The position numbers were made by a program, and so were the translations under genes. Source: Hyaloraphidium curvatum (taxonomy: Eukaryota; Monoblepharomycota; Hyaloraphidiomycetes; Hyaloraphidiales; Hyaloraphidiaceae). Taken from it: DNA of 64,000 bases. The notes beneath the pieces are model-generated. The model was given only the letters and a program-made list of their open reading frames with translations. It searched no databases and was not told where the DNA came from. Of the stretch, positions 12,071 to 41,366 are shown piece by piece (the first letter of the stretch is position 1; every line of letters begins with the position of its first letter). The stretch lies in assembly GCA_025558095.1 (NCBI GenBank), contig JAIVFI010000030.1, forward strand, positions 434,001-498,000, written 5' to 3'.

Positions 12071-12914
12071 AACACCACCAAGCAAGTGGCAACGCCGAGT
12101 AGTGGGCTGCTCTTCTCGGCGCCGAGCTCGTCCGGATACCTCCCGGGCGCGGTCAGCCCCTCCATCTTTTGCTGTTTTGCAGTCTTCACCGGTACGCCAA
12201 CTACCACTATCTACAACGTCTCACCGAGTTCCGAGGCCGTTCGCGGCAGCAGGGGAGACTTCCGACATTGACCCCGCGTCCCCCGGGGCCCCTCGGCCAA
12301 ATGCCGTGCCTAGCTTGGCCGAGGGTCACACTCTGCCCACGCCGCCCCGCGGCTCCTCCCGCTTGCCGGCACCAGCGGGGGGGAAAGGGGCGGCATGCTC
12401 GGAAGTATCTCCCTCCTCGTCATCGCAGATCTTGATCGCTGATGCCCCGGCTTCGGCCGCTTCCATGCTCTCGGCGCACCCAGGCCATCCTCCGTGGGAA
12501 ACCCCAGCTGCAACCGCCGTGCCGAGCTTGCAGCTGCCGCCTGCGCCGCCCCGCACAACCCCCGGCACGCCGCCGGCACCAACGGCCGGGGGGGGGCAGA
12601 GCTCCTCAGAAGTATCCACTCCGACGCGCACCTTGCCTCCTTGGTATGCTCACACGGAGCCCGGTTCGCCGGCGCACCTCAAATGGCCAGGTTCCGAGCT
12701 CCTCGATGACGGCGGCCGTGATGCTATCGGTGACGCGTGGTCGGCGCTTGCGGCCTGGCACAGGGCGGGGGGCGACCTGACCGAGTCACAGGAGGTTTGG
12801 ATGCGGACACATGCGCTCGACGATTGGGAGATCTCGTCGGACAAGGCACCGTCCGCGGTAGCTGATCCTGGCGGCGGGACACCGGCATCGCCGCCGCCAC
12901 CGTATTCGCCATGA
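12063..12914 (+). CDS. Retrotransposon middle ORF, Pro/Ser-rich linker protein (283 aa)
   Basis: The ORF starts at 12063 inside the last codons of the first ORF (ATGCCTAA) and ends with TGA at 12912-12914 inside ATGA shared with the third ORF. The protein is Pro/Ser/Ala-rich and low in complexity for about 200 residues. The last 80 residues are more ordered (a WSALAAWHRAGGDLTESQEVW helix-like stretch) and end Pro-rich. No catalytic domain is visible. Its length without stops and both tight overlaps argue that it is translated, probably by termination-reinitiation after ORF1. It could also have been an N-terminal part of the polymerase ORF split by a frame change. Confidence 0.55.
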   Translation: MPKTPPSKWQRRVVGCSSRRRARPDTSRARSAPPSFAVLQSSPVRQLPLSTTSHRVPRPFAAAGETSDIDPASPGAPRPNAVPSLAEGHTLPTPPRGSSRLPAPAGGKGAACSEVSPSSSSQILIADAPASAASMLSAHPGHPPWETPAATAVPSLQLPPAPPRTTPGTPPAPTAGGGQSSSEVSTPTRTLPPWYAHTEPGSPAHLKWPGSELLDDGGRDAIGDAWSALAAWHRAGGDLTESQEVWMRTHALDDWEISSDKAPSAVADPGGGTPASPPPPYSP

Positions 12915-15900
12915 GCCGCACGCCGCTCCTGCCTTACAGCTGCCACCGCTGCGCGGCAGCTTTCGCCAACATCGGAGCTCTATCTCATCATCACCAATCT
13001 TGCATCGACGGCGATGTGCCGATGGCGGAGGCGCCTGCTGAACCCGGCCTCCATGCGTGCCCGGTTGATGGTTGCCGCTTCCAGCCAACTCCAAACAAAA
13101 ACAAACGGGACGGTCATCTTCGGGTCACACGGAGCCCGGAGCACTGGTTGGCGATGCAGCGCCTGTCTGCCGATGCGTTGCGCGCCATGGGGCTAGCGCG
13201 GTGCGGGGGTTGCCGGCGTCCCTACGCCGCAAACGCCTCTGGTGCCGGTGTTTCTGGACAGCACACCTCGTGCAACCCGGACGCAGCTAACCCGCCACTC
13301 GGCGTCTCTTTAGCTTCGCTTCCACCCGATCTCGTCGAGTTCCTCGACCGCGTGCGTGCCGAGCGGGCGGCTGCCACGGGACGCGCGGAGGGACCGGCGT
13401 CACCAGCGGCATCGTCGGCATCTCCCCGTGCTTCGCCACCCGCGCCCGCGCTGATGGCGGCCCTTGCGGCCGCCCGGGTTGCGGCCGACGCCCCGCAGGA
13501 CGGCCAGGCGCAACGGGCGGCGCTGGCGGCGGCGGCGGCGGCGGCGCGTGCCGCCCCGGACGGCGGTGATCCCCCAGGCGGCGACGGCGCGCCGGGCGGC
13601 AACGCCGCGGCTGGCGGGCACGGCAACGGCGGTGATCCGGGCGACCCGGGCGACGGTGGTCCACCCGGGGGTCCCGGGCCTGATCCGCCGCCGGGCGGGG
13701 GCGCGGGGGCGCCGCCGCCGGAGCCGCTGAAGCACCGCTACCGGACCACCACCTGGAGCACGCTCGCCTTCCGGGCCAGCGAGTCTTTCCAACGGGCCTA
13801 CGAGGACCCGGCGGCACCGGAAACCGACCTGCACCGCACTCTCACCGCCTACCTTGCATTTGGCGGCTACGTCATGTCGGGGGACTACATGTACGAGCAG
13901 AACTACTTCGCCGCCCGTCAGGTCAACCGGGGCGCGCGGCGGGACGGGCTGCGGCCGCTCAACTACCAGCTCTTCAAGTCCATCGTGCTTGCCGCCTTGA
14001 AGGGCGCTCCTGGTGCTGCGTCCGCGGCCCTCTCGGGGGAGGCCGTTCCGGCTGGCTTCACGCCCACGCTTCAGGCGGAACTGGAGGAGCTGTACCCGGG
14101 GCCGCGGGAGGGAGAGCCGCTGTGTCGGCTGTCTCTGCCCCCCAACGCGCCCGCGCCCTGCCCTGCCTACACGGACGCGGCTTTCCTGGAGGACATCTGG
14201 GCCCGGTTGCGCCGGAAGAAGGACGGCGTGGGGGCCGGCATGTCGGGTTTCAGCATGGCCAAACTTTTCATCGTGCACAACTGCGAGAACGACGCGACGC
14301 GGCGGAAGCTCCGCCCGCTGGCGGCCATGGTGCACGGCGTGTGCACTGGCCGACTCGACACCCCCATGCTCCGGCCGCTCCTCACGGATCAAACCCTCGT
14401 CCCTCTGCTCAAGCCGGAGGGGGGGCTCCGGCCGATTGGCATTATGGAGGGCATCACGCGGCTCGCGGGCTCGTACCTGGCCGTGCGGCACAAGGCTCTT
14501 CTGAGGAAGCTCCAACAGCAGGAGGACCTGGGTCACGGGGTGGACGGGGGCGCGGAGGCGACCGCCCACGCGGTGAACGCGTGGCTGGCGGCCTTCCCCG
14601 ACCACGTCGTCATGAAGGTCGACTCTAGGAACGCCTTCAATACGCTGCGCCGCCTCTTCGCGCGCGAGGTGGTCCGCCAGGTGCCTCAGCTTATCCCGTA
14701 CTACAACCTCGTTTACTCGCGCCCTTCCCACGCCTACTTCCGCGACCGGCGCTCGGCGGAGCTCCTTTTCCGGATCACCATGTACGAGGGCAACATCCAG
14801 GGCGACCCGCTGTCGTCTGCCATCTTCTCCTGCGCCATGAGCCGCATGCTGCGGCCCATCCGCTCTGGGCACCCCGACTGCCTCATCCTTGGGTACCTCG
14901 ACGACCTCACCGTGGTCGGGCCGCTGGACTCGGTCATGGCCGTCCTGGGAGAGGTGCGTGACGGCCTTTCTTCCCTCGGCATGACCCACCGCCCGGACAA
15001 GAGCTACCTGCTTTCGCTCTCGACGAACCCGGCCGTGCTGGAGCGGGTGCGCGCGGCCGGTGCGGCCCACAACATCCGCGTCGCTGGCTTCCCGCCTCAC
15101 GAGGCCGACCCCGAGGTGCATGCCACGGCGTCGGCCCCGGGCTCGCCTGACTTCGCTCGCTCGTGCGGCCTCAAGGTGGTAGGTGCCCCGGTCGGCACCC
15201 CTGCCTACGTGGAGTCGTTCCTCGCTGCCAAGATCGACTCCATTGCCGCTCTTCTCGATGACATCGAGCGCGCCGCGCTCGGCTACGCCATGCCGGCCGA
15301 CATCCCCTCCCTCCAGGGCCTGTACTCCCTCCTCCGTCTCTGTGTGACCCAGCTCTTCTCGTTTTGGCTCCGCATTCTCCCCCCCTCGGTTACCCAACCC
15401 TTTGCTCGACGTCTTGACAACGCGCTTTTCACCACCTTTTTGCGCTTGCTGGGAGATCGGGCCGAGGATCTGGATCCGCTGTCGGTGGAGGGTCGGACTG
15501 TGCGGGAGCAGGTATTCTTGGGTCTGCACTACTCGGGGATGGGGCTTCTGTCATCGGAGAAGGTGGCCTCGGCGGCTTACCTGTCTTCACTCAACCTCAC
15601 GGCGGGCCCCTTGGACGCCATGCTTGGTCTTCGAACCTCGGCCCGGGGTGTGGGCGTGGAGCACGTGCGGGAACTGGTTCCCGTCATCGAGGCCCTCCGC
15701 CCCGCCTTTGAGCGTGTCGAGGATGACACGGCCGCAGCGTACGCCGAGGCTGCGCGTGCTGGGCAACCGGTGGGCGCCGCGCCCGCCCGCCGTACGCTCC
15801 CTGCGGACGCCAGTTTCTTCGCTCAGCCGGTCTGGCACGGCCTGCAGAGCGACCTTACGCGTCTCGAGGACCAGCGCCGCCTCGCGGCTCTGATTGCCTT

Positions 15901-16822
15901 GCAACCCGACACTTCCGCTGGTCTGGAGCGCCGCAAGCGGCTCGTCCAGGCGCAGGACGGCCTGTCGGCTTTCCTGACTGCCTCTCCCGCGCTGCTTGCC
16001 AACCACATTCGCAACAACTTTTTCCGCTTACTTGTACGCTTCCGGCTTTGCCTCCCGCTCCTGCACGAGGCCGACTACCCTGGTCTTTCCTTGCCCTGCC
16101 GGCGGGGCTGCAAGCGATCGGCCATGTCGCTGACGGGGGAGCACGCGTTCTCGGGCTGCTATGGCCGGGATCTCTTCAGTCCTGGTCACGACGACATTTG
16201 CGCGGCCATCCGCGCGGCGCTTCGCTCCATCCCGCTCCTCCGCGTGCACCCCATGCCGCCAAACCTCCTTGCGCATGGCTACGAGACTGTCACCCCGCCC
16301 ACGCCTGCGGATGCTGGCCGCCTTGGCGACATTCTCATCACGCACCGCGAAACCCGGAAACGGTGGTTGCTCGAGATCAAGACCCTCACCTCTATGGCCC
16401 ATTTGCACACGGGCCTGGTCTTCTCGGTCCCGGGCCACGCAGTCGAACGGCGGGTCGAGGCCGCCAGGAAGGACTACTCCCGTTTCGTCTTCAACGCCAA
16501 CTTCTACCCTCTGATCGTGCTTGCTTTTGATTCGTACAGCGCTGTCTCTGCCACTTTCTCGCGCTTCTCCTCGGAGATGGGGCGCATCCAGTATCCCGGG
16601 ATCGTCGGCCGCGATGGGCAGCCCGTGGACCTCGATGGCCTTTACTCTCGTTTTGTGCGGCGCTTCCGCGAACGGATCGCGGTGGCCTGGGCTCTTGGCG
16701 TCGCGGCCCAACTCCAACACTGGCTTCAGCTGTGCACCGAAGCCGCCGCTGTCAACGCTCCGGCCCCCGCGCCGGTCGCTTTTGGTTTGAATGTAGATGA
16801 GGAGCTGATTCTTGGGGCGTAG
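12911..16822 (+). CDS. Retrotransposon polyprotein: zinc fingers, reverse transcriptase, restriction-like endonuclease (1303 aa)
   Basis: The start ATG at 12911 overlaps the previous stop. Domains in order: two or three Cys/His fingers in the first 120 residues (CHRCAAAFANIGALSHHHQSC; CPVDGC...H; CGGCRRPY...C), a Gly/Pro-rich linker, and a reverse transcriptase about 330-780. The polymerase shows the D571 motif VDSRNAFN, the GNIQGDPLSS motif and Y662-L-D-D. A thumb-like region follows, then a CCHC-like knuckle near 1063 (CRRGC...HAFSGC) and an endonuclease core with D1140 (GDILI) and E1155-I-K1157. This order is that of R2-clade enzymes, which nick the target and prime cDNA synthesis on it. 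N-terminal fingers in that clade recognise a specific site, so site-specific insertion is plausible here. Confidence 0.92.
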   Translation: MSRTPLLPYSCHRCAAAFANIGALSHHHQSCIDGDVPMAEAPAEPGLHACPVDGCRFQPTPNKNKRDGHLRVTRSPEHWLAMQRLSADALRAMGLARCGGCRRPYAANASGAGVSGQHTSCNPDAANPPLGVSLASLPPDLVEFLDRVRAERAAATGRAEGPASPAASSASPRASPPAPALMAALAAARVAADAPQDGQAQRAALAAAAAAARAAPDGGDPPGGDGAPGGNAAAGGHGNGGDPGDPGDGGPPGGPGPDPPPGGGAGAPPPEPLKHRYRTTTWSTLAFRASESFQRAYEDPAAPETDLHRTLTAYLAFGGYVMSGDYMYEQNYFAARQVNRGARRDGLRPLNYQLFKSIVLAALKGAPGAASAALSGEAVPAGFTPTLQAELEELYPGPREGEPLCRLSLPPNAPAPCPAYTDAAFLEDIWARLRRKKDGVGAGMSGFSMAKLFIVHNCENDATRRKLRPLAAMVHGVCTGRLDTPMLRPLLTDQTLVPLLKPEGGLRPIGIMEGITRLAGSYLAVRHKALLRKLQQQEDLGHGVDGGAEATAHAVNAWLAAFPDHVVMKVDSRNAFNTLRRLFAREVVRQVPQLIPYYNLVYSRPSHAYFRDRRSAELLFRITMYEGNIQGDPLSSAIFSCAMSRMLRPIRSGHPDCLILGYLDDLTVVGPLDSVMAVLGEVRDGLSSLGMTHRPDKSYLLSLSTNPAVLERVRAAGAAHNIRVAGFPPHEADPEVHATASAPGSPDFARSCGLKVVGAPVGTPAYVESFLAAKIDSIAALLDDIERAALGYAMPADIPSLQGLYSLLRLCVTQLFSFWLRILPPSVTQPFARRLDNALFTTFLRLLGDRAEDLDPLSVEGRTVREQVFLGLHYSGMGLLSSEKVASAAYLSSLNLTAGPLDAMLGLRTSARGVGVEHVRELVPVIEALRPAFERVEDDTAAAYAEAARAGQPVGAAPARRTLPADASFFAQPVWHGLQSDLTRLEDQRRLAALIALQPDTSAGLERRKRLVQAQDGLSAFLTASPALLANHIRNNFFRLLVRFRLCLPLLHEADYPGLSLPCRRGCKRSAMSLTGEHAFSGCYGRDLFSPGHDDICAAIRAALRSIPLLRVHPMPPNLLAHGYETVTPPTPADAGRLGDILITHRETRKRWLLEIKTLTSMAHLHTGLVFSVPGHAVERRVEAARKDYSRFVFNANFYPLIVLAFDSYSAVSATFSRFSSEMGRIQYPGIVGRDGQPVDLDGLYSRFVRRFRERIAVAWALGVAAQLQHWLQLCTEAAAVNAPAPAPVAFGLNVDEELILGA

Positions 16823-37688: not shown

Positions 37689-40600
37689 ATGGCCGACGAT
37701 CCGGGCGACGATGGCGGGGATTTTCTGCCAGGAGATGTGCTGCCGCTGCCTCCTCCACCGGGCGGCGTGGCGAGCTCAGTTCAGGAATCTACACCTGTTG
37801 GACCGAAGCCGGCGAACTTTCTCTTGTCGTACTACGACGACTTGAAGCTGGACATGAACGAGCTGGAGCCCGTGAAGCTCGGCGAGGGCAAATTCGCGGT
37901 CGCGTACAGGGCCAAGCTCCGCGGGGCCATTCCGGTCGCTGTCAAGAGACTGAAGGACACACGTTCAAAGGAGAAGCTGCGAGAGGAATTGACGAAGGAA
38001 GTCGAGACATGGCAGCAATTGTCCGATGACAATGGTGAGGCTTGCAGGCAACGTGCCATACCGTCCTCTTGACCACTATCCGGCACCAGTTCTAAGGTTC
38101 CGTGGCTACTGCATGGAGCCTCTTGCTCTGGTTTCTGATTTTGCCGACGGAGGAGACCTGCACGGGGTGCTGGAGAAAGTACGGCTCGCGAACGCGTTTC
38201 CCTGGGCTGGCCGGCGCGAGTGCCTGCTCCAAGTGGCTCGTGGAATGCTCTATCTTCATTCTATGGACGTCTTGCACTGCGATTTGAAGCCTGCCAACAT
38301 CTTGATTCGTCTTGGGGTATACAAGATTGCAGACTTCGGGCTTTCCAGTCTCCGCAATCTCGCGGGGGCATCGACCGCTGGCTCCCCTGCCTACATGCCT
38401 CCGGAATCGTTGCGGAGGCCGCCAGCCAAGCGGGATAAGCCGGCCGATGTGTACAGCTTCGGCGTGATTGCGTACGAGATGTCTTGCGGGGCGCGCCCAA
38501 ACGTGGTACGTGGCATTGGCACTATATTGCGTCTTTATAGTTTATGAGATTCCCGCTAGGACGTAGTTCGTGGTCTTTCCAGTGGTGTTCCATTCACCCG
38601 CCCTTACGAGATCGCGGGGGACGATCGGATGTGGCGCCTGATGTCAAGCTGCGCCAAGATTGACCCTTTCGAGCGCCCGTCGTTCGAAGGCGTCGTCGAC
38701 TACATCTCCCTCGGGGACGGCGCGGATCTCTCGGCTTCGAGCTCTGCAGCATCGGCTGCAGCTGTGGGAGTCTCAAGCGCTCCGAGCTACTCGTATTCCG
38801 CGGCGGCTCTCGCTCCAAACGAAGCATCTGCCAGCTCTGCTCATTCAGCTCTTGCACCGGAGAACGCCGGCGGTGCGGACGGAGTTCCGGTGGATCGCAT
38901 TGTGCTCCAAGTCGCCAACGGCGGATATGGACAGGGCGACAACCCGAAAAACTTGCCGATGGCGTCCGAGAGCGTCGACCTCTTGCGAACGGTGCTTGTT
39001 TCGTTCTATGGGTTCTCGGGATCCCCGCTTTATGACCGAGATTCCACTGCTATCCGGACTGCTGCTCGACCTGCCTGTGCCAGCTTGCGAGGAGCACAAG
39101 GAACGTCGATCATTCATCTCGTTGGACATGGCGGTGATCGTCGGGGTCGCTTCGTGTTCGAGGGAGTTTCCCCGGGCGCGACGGACGAGGGCCAGCCTGC
39201 TGAGGACAGCACAGTGGACCTGGAACGCGACATCATGTCCCAGATCCCGGAGGACCATCAGGGTCTCGTTGTTGTGCTCCTGGATTGTTGCCGCGGATCC
39301 ATGGGCACGGAGGACCGACCGTTTGACGTGGACAGAAACAACGTGGTTCTTGGCCTCGCTGCTCGGCGTGATGCAAAGGCGTACGGGTGCTTGTACACCT
39401 TCGTCCTCGCCGAAGAGCTTTGGAAGCGGTTCGATAACCAGTCAGGGAACCTCACGTGGCGGGACGTACTCTACGACGTCGAGCAGCGCATCATTGCCGG
39501 GACGGCGGTTGTAGCCTCGCACCCTCAGGGAACAAATCCACCGGCCACCGCTTTGGTTCAGCAGCCGCGCCATTCAACACTAGGTACTGGGGAAGTCAAG
39601 TGGCACAAGTTTCCGCTGGTAGAGTCCTCGATGTGCTGCCTTCCTGTTCTGTGCTAACTGTTCGTTTCTTGGCAGAGGCCCCGCGCAAAGACCACGAATG
39701 CCAAGGAGTACATTCAGCGGAAAGTGCTTGGCAACGAGTTTCGGAACCGCGCGAAGGATCTTGAGAATATGGATGCCCTTCAGCAGAGCTATCCACTGGC
39801 ATCTTACATGGAGGACTTGTTCAGTGGGAATTATATGCTGGAGATGACTTTCGGCGATGGCAGAGCGTGGGAAAGCAGGCGCTCAGCGTGGACAGCAGCG
39901 GATCTAGTGCTGGAGTTGTGCAAGACCAGCGCGAGCTATCGGGATTCTTCGGTAATCAATGCTCGGCTCCGTTGTCTTTCGGGGGCAGCAATCAAGTATG
40001 GCTTAGGGCGCCTTTGGCTAAAAGAGCCGCACGAATTGGTGTACGGCTTTGTCCGTGAAGCCGTGGTCACAAACTACCGGATCCTGCACGAGGCGCAGTT
40101 TGATCTTGACGTGGCAAGGCCTGAGGTGGAGCGGAAACCGGACATGACGGAGCTCACGTTCGCTGTCATTTGCGGCCGACACAAGCTGGTGAGGGCTCTT
40201 CTACAGGGTCCATGGGAGCTCCATGAGGCCGACAAGGAAGGCAACACGCCTTTCCACCATGCTTGCCGGAGCGGTGACATGAGCATGGTTCAGCTCTTTT
40301 TGGATCGCTTTGGCACTTTTGACCACACGGTTCGTAATGTGGACGGAAAGCAGGCTTCCGATTTGGTGCCATCGCCTGCGGAGATGGGTTCAATCAAGGC
40401 GGCGTTGCAGTTTGCCGAGACAGAACGCGGAATGAAGATAGCTCCTGCGTCGGCTTTCGTTGTTGCCTCGAACAACTTAAAGGGCACGGGAGCATTTGGA
40501 GCAACTCAAGAAGGAACATTCAACGGGCATCCTGCAGCCATTAGGACGTCTCCATCGAAGTTTGGAGATGACTTACTTTTCCATAACCAAATCACTATCC

Positions 40601-41366
40601 GAAACGTCATTGGAGAGCATGAGAACGGTGGGTGCTTGGCTCGGCACTATTTCGTGGATGTCCACTCACCGTCCAAAAGTTATGCCGATTCTTGGCTTCT
40701 GCGAGGACCCGCCGATGATCGCTTATCCTATTGGATCCAATGATCTTCATTGCTATTTTTGGTATCAGCGAAATCATCCGGGTTACTGGAAAGCAGCTTG
40801 CCGCCTCCTCAGGGACGTTGCCGCTGGGGTGGCACATTGCCATGCCCATTCTGTGGTGCATGGAGATCTCAAGCCATCGAATGTGATTGTCTTCGAGGAC
40901 GCCGGTGACTTTCCCGTGGCGCGAGTAGCGGACTTCAGTGGTTCAATACTCCGTTACGGTCATGCAAGGTCTGGAGCTGACTTCAAAGGGATCGGCACAA
41001 TACCTTTCCAGCCCCCAGAGATGCTTGCAGCCGGTGGAAACATCAACCAACGAGCCAAGGAGTCCGACGACGTGTACGCTTTCGCCATGGTATGCTTCGA
41101 GGCCGCCACCAGGGGCTACGAGCCATTCTACGGGCAACGTCAGGACGAGGTGGGTCCAATTGCGCATCTGTGAACGGCACGTGCTCACGCCCAAGGGGCA
41201 GATCATGCGCAGGGTCGTCGCCGGGGAGCGGCCCGAGATACCGCCCGACACGCCGCCGTTGCTCGCGACGCTGATGAAGGAATGCTGGCACCAGGATCCC
41301 GAGCAAAGGCCGAGCTTCGAGGTGATCGTGCACAGGATGAAGGAGATTGTGTCGGAGGTGTCGTGA
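37689..41366 (+). CDS. Kinase-caspase-ankyrin-kinase fusion protein (1137 aa)
   Basis: Six exons: 37689-38034, 38090-38505, 38560-39618, 39676-40627, 40680-41149 and 41196-41366. Introns are 55, 54, 57, 52 and 46 nt, and all phases agree. Kinase 1 (about 55-310): GEGKFAVAY loop, K86, H178-C-D-L-K-P-A-N, D197-F-G, MPPES; non-RD but with a full catalytic set. A Ser/Ala linker leads to a caspase-like C14 domain (about 370-580) with H444 (HLVGHGG) and the LLDCCRG motif, C498 by analogy with metacaspases. A helical region and two ankyrin repeats (about 763-840) follow. Kinase 2 (about 860-1130) has R897 in place of the ATP lysine, HGDLKPSN and D1009-F-S for DFG, so it is probably a pseudokinase. 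Such a chain suggests proteolytic signalling controlled by phosphorylation, perhaps regulated cell death. That is inference. Confidence 0.85.

Follow-up and report, generated by a model that had tools for sequence, protein, structure and literature searches.

A six-exon gene of Hyaloraphidium curvatum encoding a TKL kinase, a caspase-like domain, ankyrin repeats and a predicted pseudokinase, and its four paralogs

Gene structure

The window, a stretch of 64,000 nucleotides from the genome of H. curvatum, carries on its forward strand a gene of six exons at positions 37689–41366. The exons lie at 37689–38034, 38090–38505, 38560–39618, 39676–40627, 40680–41149 and 41196 (or 41202)–41366. The gene model is based on splice-aware alignment, a stop-free translation and a conserved N-terminus, the signature M..DPG.DGGD..PPPP of which is shared with the paralogs. 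An independent rebuild and a splice-aware protein-to-genome alignment gave identical exon junctions, and the six exons, phases and introns of one chain that had been assembled in the initial annotation are thereby borne out. Only the end of intron 5 had to be revised. With the acceptor at 41195, the gene encodes the 1137 aa of that annotation without an internal stop and with introns of 46–57 nt. If the acceptor is instead placed at the CAG at 41201, the window sequence QDE|IMRR pairs with the splice EAE|IKLK of a related ankyrin-TKL gene on contig C24. Since this relative is spliced at exactly the equivalent point, intron 5 probably ends at 41201 (52 nt, CAG) and not with the AAG at 41195, which makes a protein of 1135 aa likelier than one of 1137 aa.

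Intron 3 (39619–39675, forward strand), which has a CTAAC branch-point-like site, had been singled out as doubtful. In the splice-aware alignment its position and its phase 0 are common to all five members of the gene family described below. Intron 1 is also common to family members. Downstream of intron 3, exon 4 forms one open frame of 361 codons leading from a linker domain through the ankyrin repeats into the second kinase. A division of the locus into a kinase–caspase gene ending at the TAA within intron 3 (39655–39657) and a separate ankyrin–pseudokinase gene is very improbable and was rejected, because, although read-through from 39618 meets a stop after about 12 codons and an in-frame ATG stands just ahead of the ankyrins (residues KPDM), the intron is conserved in all five genes and the conserved linker domain follows it in the same unbroken frame as the ankyrins and the second kinase. 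The conserved introns, the purifying selection and the paralogs thus support a single predicted protein, in which a kinase that looks active is combined with the C14-type domain, the ankyrins and a predicted pseudokinase.

The GC3 of the five longer exons of this gene is 0.58–0.71. Six long open frames of the window, mostly of putative coding status, were sampled for comparison, and four of them have higher values, 0.72–0.86.

Kinase 1 and the caspase-like domain

Pfam places two PF07714/PF00069 stretches in the protein (E 2.5e-69/2.6e-61). The first kinase domain, kinase 1, comprises residues 55–305 (37851–38712, forward strand) and was assigned from Pfam, PDB matches and a motif table. It belongs to the TKL type, as PF07714 is matched above its cut-off (E 2.5e-69) and TKL kinases are the best matches; the nearest PDB entries are CTR1, TAK1 and B-Raf. 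The GxGxF motif, K86, E104, the HCD motif with D180 and the DFG motif are intact in all five genes. The catalytic loop reads HCDLKPAN and is therefore non-RD, with the motifs located where the initial annotation had put them. By its motifs, kinase 1 is an active-looking, catalytically intact kinase.

Kinase 1 is followed by a caspase-like (C14) domain at residues 367–607 (38896–39618, forward strand), which was identified through PF00656 in the paralogs, an AlphaFold model and structure comparison with VIA. Its active site consists of the motifs GHGG and DCCRGS. The predicted catalytic residues, His444 in HLVGHGG (39127–39129, forward strand) and Cys498 in LLDCCRGS (39289–39291, forward strand), were found at the places given previously and are invariant in the five genes, as is Asp496 at position Cys-2. 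The initial annotation had made its reading of this domain depend on a PF00656 match at residues 370–580. This match holds only in part for the window copy, where residues 369–510 score 17.5 bits (E 0.0036), under the gathering cut-off of 21.4 bits; the four paralogs reach 24.5, 22.3, 28.4 and 32.1 bits and all lie above it. In the AlphaFold model, built on five sequences (pTM 0.70, mean pLDDT 65), the predicted fold of the domain is clearly that of a caspase. Foldseek matched the model to the caspase fold with a probability of 1.00. In VIA it was superimposed on procaspase-8, -6 and -7 with Z 16.1–16.5, the top value being that for caspase-8 (Z 16.5 over 199 residues, rmsd 3.1), and on MALT1 with Z 16.0, values within 1 of each other being counted as tied. 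The paralogs above the cut-off and the caspase fold together override the objection that the weak PF00656 match of the window copy would raise.

The affiliation of the domain within the caspase superfamily was less obvious. A profile search of PDB sequences returned MALT1 as the sole match, a weak one (E 0.09–0.46). Among the NCBIfam families, only that of the bacterial EACC1-associated caspases (NF047832) was matched, with E 5.8e-5 for the window copy and 2.3e-6 for a paralog, and the score of the domain is far under the family cut-off (22.7 against 140 bits). Metacaspases are characterized by the active site DxCHSG, and caspases by QACxG together with a basic S1 pocket, while the acidic S1 pocket of MALT1 is formed by Asp365, Asp462 and Glu500. 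A metacaspase was rejected, since DCCRGS stands in place of DxCHSG and the ranking of the folds does not fit either; ordinary metacaspases with the motifs DACHSG and DSCHSG are encoded elsewhere in the same genome. The Asp-specific caspases (C14A) do not accommodate the domain, which has Asp instead of Gln at Cys-2 and lacks QACxG. Asp496 is the equivalent of MALT1 Asp462, a Gly occupies the position of Glu500 in the HMMER alignment, and the position of Asp365 is insecurely aligned. Judged from these alignments, the S1 pocket is not that of a caspase and is only partly that of MALT1, so that membership of the paracaspases is putative and unproven.

Linker, ankyrin repeats and kinase 2

Residues 608–745 (39676–40089, forward strand) form a linker domain that was absent from the initial annotation and was recognized in the five-gene alignment, being conserved in every gene. 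It is predicted to begin with helices and to continue as beta-beta-alpha-beta-beta-alpha (model pTM 0.59). A comparison of the model with the PDB by Foldseek and VIA gave no confident match to a known fold and nothing above Z 5.2. On this model the linker is a family-specific alpha/beta domain. About two ankyrin repeats follow at residues 762–820 (40138–40314, forward strand; Pfam Ank_4 5e-8, Ank_3 1e-7), in agreement with the two noted earlier.

The C-terminal part, residues ~870–1137 (40462–41363, forward strand), is occupied by a second TKL-like kinase domain, kinase 2, delimited by Pfam, alignment and a motif table. It matches RIPK4 and roco4. The ATP lysine is replaced by R897 and the DFG motif by DFS (S1011), which confirms the two losses already reported for this domain, and the alphaC glutamate, replaced by Q912, can be added to them. 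Both catalytic aspartates are kept, D987 of the catalytic loop (HGD) and D1009 of the DFG position. Because the lysine, the alphaC glutamate and the DFG glycine are lost, kinase 2 is predicted to be a pseudokinase. In an alignment with the ankyrin-TKL genes on contigs C24, C26 and C14 (C14b), those three genes keep K, E and DFG; R897, Q912 and DFS occur only in the window copy among the four aligned sequences.

Paralogs and origin of the gene

The core consisting of kinase 1, the caspase-like domain and the linker was found five times in the genome, in the window gene and in four paralogs. One paralog (C30b) is located on contig C30 about 51 kb upstream of the window gene, two (C13a and C13b) lie on contig C13 about 6 kb apart, and one is on contig C23. 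Where synonymous change is not saturated, the dN/dS ratios are about 0.14–0.25 for kinase 1, 0.12–0.15 for the caspase-like domain and 0.17–0.29 for the linker, values that indicate purifying selection on the core. The possibility that the gene is a pseudogene was rejected on account of these ratios and the intact motifs.

The similarity of the window gene to its paralogs is gone after residue 745 (at most 9%). The C13a paralog (L024:2842-5502 on contig C13, reverse strand) runs in one frame from the core into LRR_6 repeats (E 6e-31) and thus has the order kinase–caspase–LRR. The tails of the other three paralogs contain no domains known to Pfam. The tail of the window gene, from about residue 764 onwards and including introns 4 and 5, is 51–53% identical to the ankyrin-TKL gene on contig C24 (53% in the ankyrin part), at a distance at which synonymous sites are saturated or nearly so. 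Since the tail and introns 4 and 5 match the C24 gene and the likeness to the paralogs ends at residue 745, the simplest account of the gene is that a core gene was fused in frame to an ankyrin-TKL gene and that kinase 2 decayed afterwards. The recurrence of the core with different tails is a more informative fact than the single domain architecture on which the initial annotation had focused.

Two further observations concern the core. In kinase 1 the window gene comes nearest to C13a (80% identity), but in the caspase-like domain and the linker it comes nearest to C13b (76% and 57%), which suggests that paralogs have recombined or undergone gene conversion. The C30b paralog is immediately followed by a kinase-only gene (L026:5231-6375 on contig C30, reverse strand) with the same N-terminal M..DPG.DGGD, which may be an ancestor of kinase 1 or a duplicate of it.

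Comparison with known systems

MALT1 resembles the caspase-like domain in its fold, in sequence identity (20%, versus about 10% for caspases) and in the motif LLDxCR with Asp at Cys-2. The two proteins also have in common that a long p20/p10 insert is missing and that the protease is part of a multidomain signalling protein. Unlike MALT1, the window protein is fungal, has no N-terminal death or Ig domains detectable by Pfam and carries a kinase in the same chain. In animals, adaptor domains bring RIPK-family TKL kinases together with caspases or paracaspases. RIPK4/ANKK1-type kinases and fungal ankyrin-TKL kinases combine a TKL kinase with ankyrins, as does the tail of the window gene. In the window gene, however, the ankyrins stand ahead of a kinase that has degenerated, and both are joined to a protease core.

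The caspases of bacterial conflict systems (NF047832) are the second group to be considered, with the reservation on the score given above. To our knowledge, no fusion to a TKL kinase occurs among the bacterial EACC1-associated caspases. Caspases of this kind are found in systems beside kinases and adaptor domains (PMC8195603). A scan of prokaryote genomes and viral contigs found no relatives, and plasmid-borne caspases of Rhizobium are only about 29% identical (E 0.06), a match that reflects shared superfamily membership only. A recent gain from bacteria or viruses was rejected on these grounds, which set no limit on an ancient transfer.

The NLR/STAND proteins of fungi, animals and plants likewise join an N-terminal effector to an exchangeable C-terminal ankyrin or LRR module. 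The family described here differs from them in that its effector is a kinase plus a protease and that NACHT and NB-ARC are missing. Pfam detected neither domain in the window protein, and an exon-wise search of the genome gave no match to them, a result that falls short of proving absence. NLRs have been reported absent from chytrids (PMC4986451), and paracaspases have been tabulated as absent from fungi (PMC4357240). On kinase–caspase fusions in fungi, nothing relevant was found in the open-access literature, to which the search was confined; proteins of this architecture may yet lie unnoticed in sequence databases.

Proposed function

We tentatively propose, with somewhat less than even confidence, that the five genes encode a family of receptor-like signalling proteases without a NOD module, in which an intact TKL kinase, a caspase-fold protease and an alpha/beta domain are combined with an exchangeable C-terminal recognition module. 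This module would consist of ankyrins and the pseudokinase in the window gene and of LRRs in C13a. In the first step, the C-terminal module, with the pseudokinase as a scaffold, would bind a ligand or partner and gather several chains. Kinase 1 would then phosphorylate itself, a serine-rich stretch or its neighbours. In the last step, the paired caspase-like domains would become active without p20/p10 cleavage and would cut a limited set of substrates. The architecture, the conserved catalytic residues, the selection and the fusion with exchanged tails are seen in the sequences. Oligomerisation, the order of events, what the protease cuts and any part played in immunity or cell death are what we infer here, and the same applies to the "autonomous signalling or death device" of the initial annotation. 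Since kinase and caspase-like protease are covalently one chain, the protein offers an easy way to ask if a caspase-like protease can be gated directly by the activity of a kinase. It is also a candidate link between recognition and proteolysis in fungi that lack NLRs, and it bears on the distribution of paracaspase-like domains.

It is also quite possible, if a less favoured explanation, that the gene is one unremarkable product of a large TKL expansion in fungi, serving development or nutrient signalling, with a regulatory caspase-like domain unrelated to death or self/non-self and a fusion that is a lineage-specific accident. TKL kinases are numerous in the genome (more than 100 matched places), several of them occur with ankyrins, tandem clusters are frequent, and the kinase-only gene beside C30b shares the N-terminus of the family. 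The catalytic dyad is nevertheless retained by every one of the five genes and is strongly constrained, so that the protease is no accident of one copy.

The proposed family of signalling proteases could be given a wider meaning. Given that chytrids are reported to lack NLRs and that no NACHT or NB-ARC match was found in this genome by the exon-wise search, a NOD-less alternative is attractive, though unproven. In its most far-reaching form it would be a new, NOD-independent class of intracellular receptors in an early-diverging fungus, with a TKL kinase and a paracaspase-like protease as one effector onto which ankyrin–pseudokinase or LRR tails have been swapped by gene fusion. We regard this form as speculative and rather unlikely. 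If true, it would give fungi their first reported paracaspase-like enzyme, to judge from the literature that was searched.

That the caspase-like domain and kinase 2 are mere binding platforms, scaffold or decoy, and that the protein acts through kinase 1 only, is improbable. The loss of catalytic residues in kinase 2 and the PF00656 score of the window copy, the lowest of the five, are consistent with such a role, but His444, Cys498 and Asp496 are intact and the constraint on the caspase-like domain is the strongest or near-strongest among the domains.

The genome in which these genes reside has 31.9 Mb in 55 contigs and contains a fungal-type chitin synthase. Elsewhere in the window, an open frame of 1318 codons at 12866–16822 (forward strand) matches the reverse transcriptase family RVT_1 (E 8e-10) and is probably a non-LTR retrotransposon.
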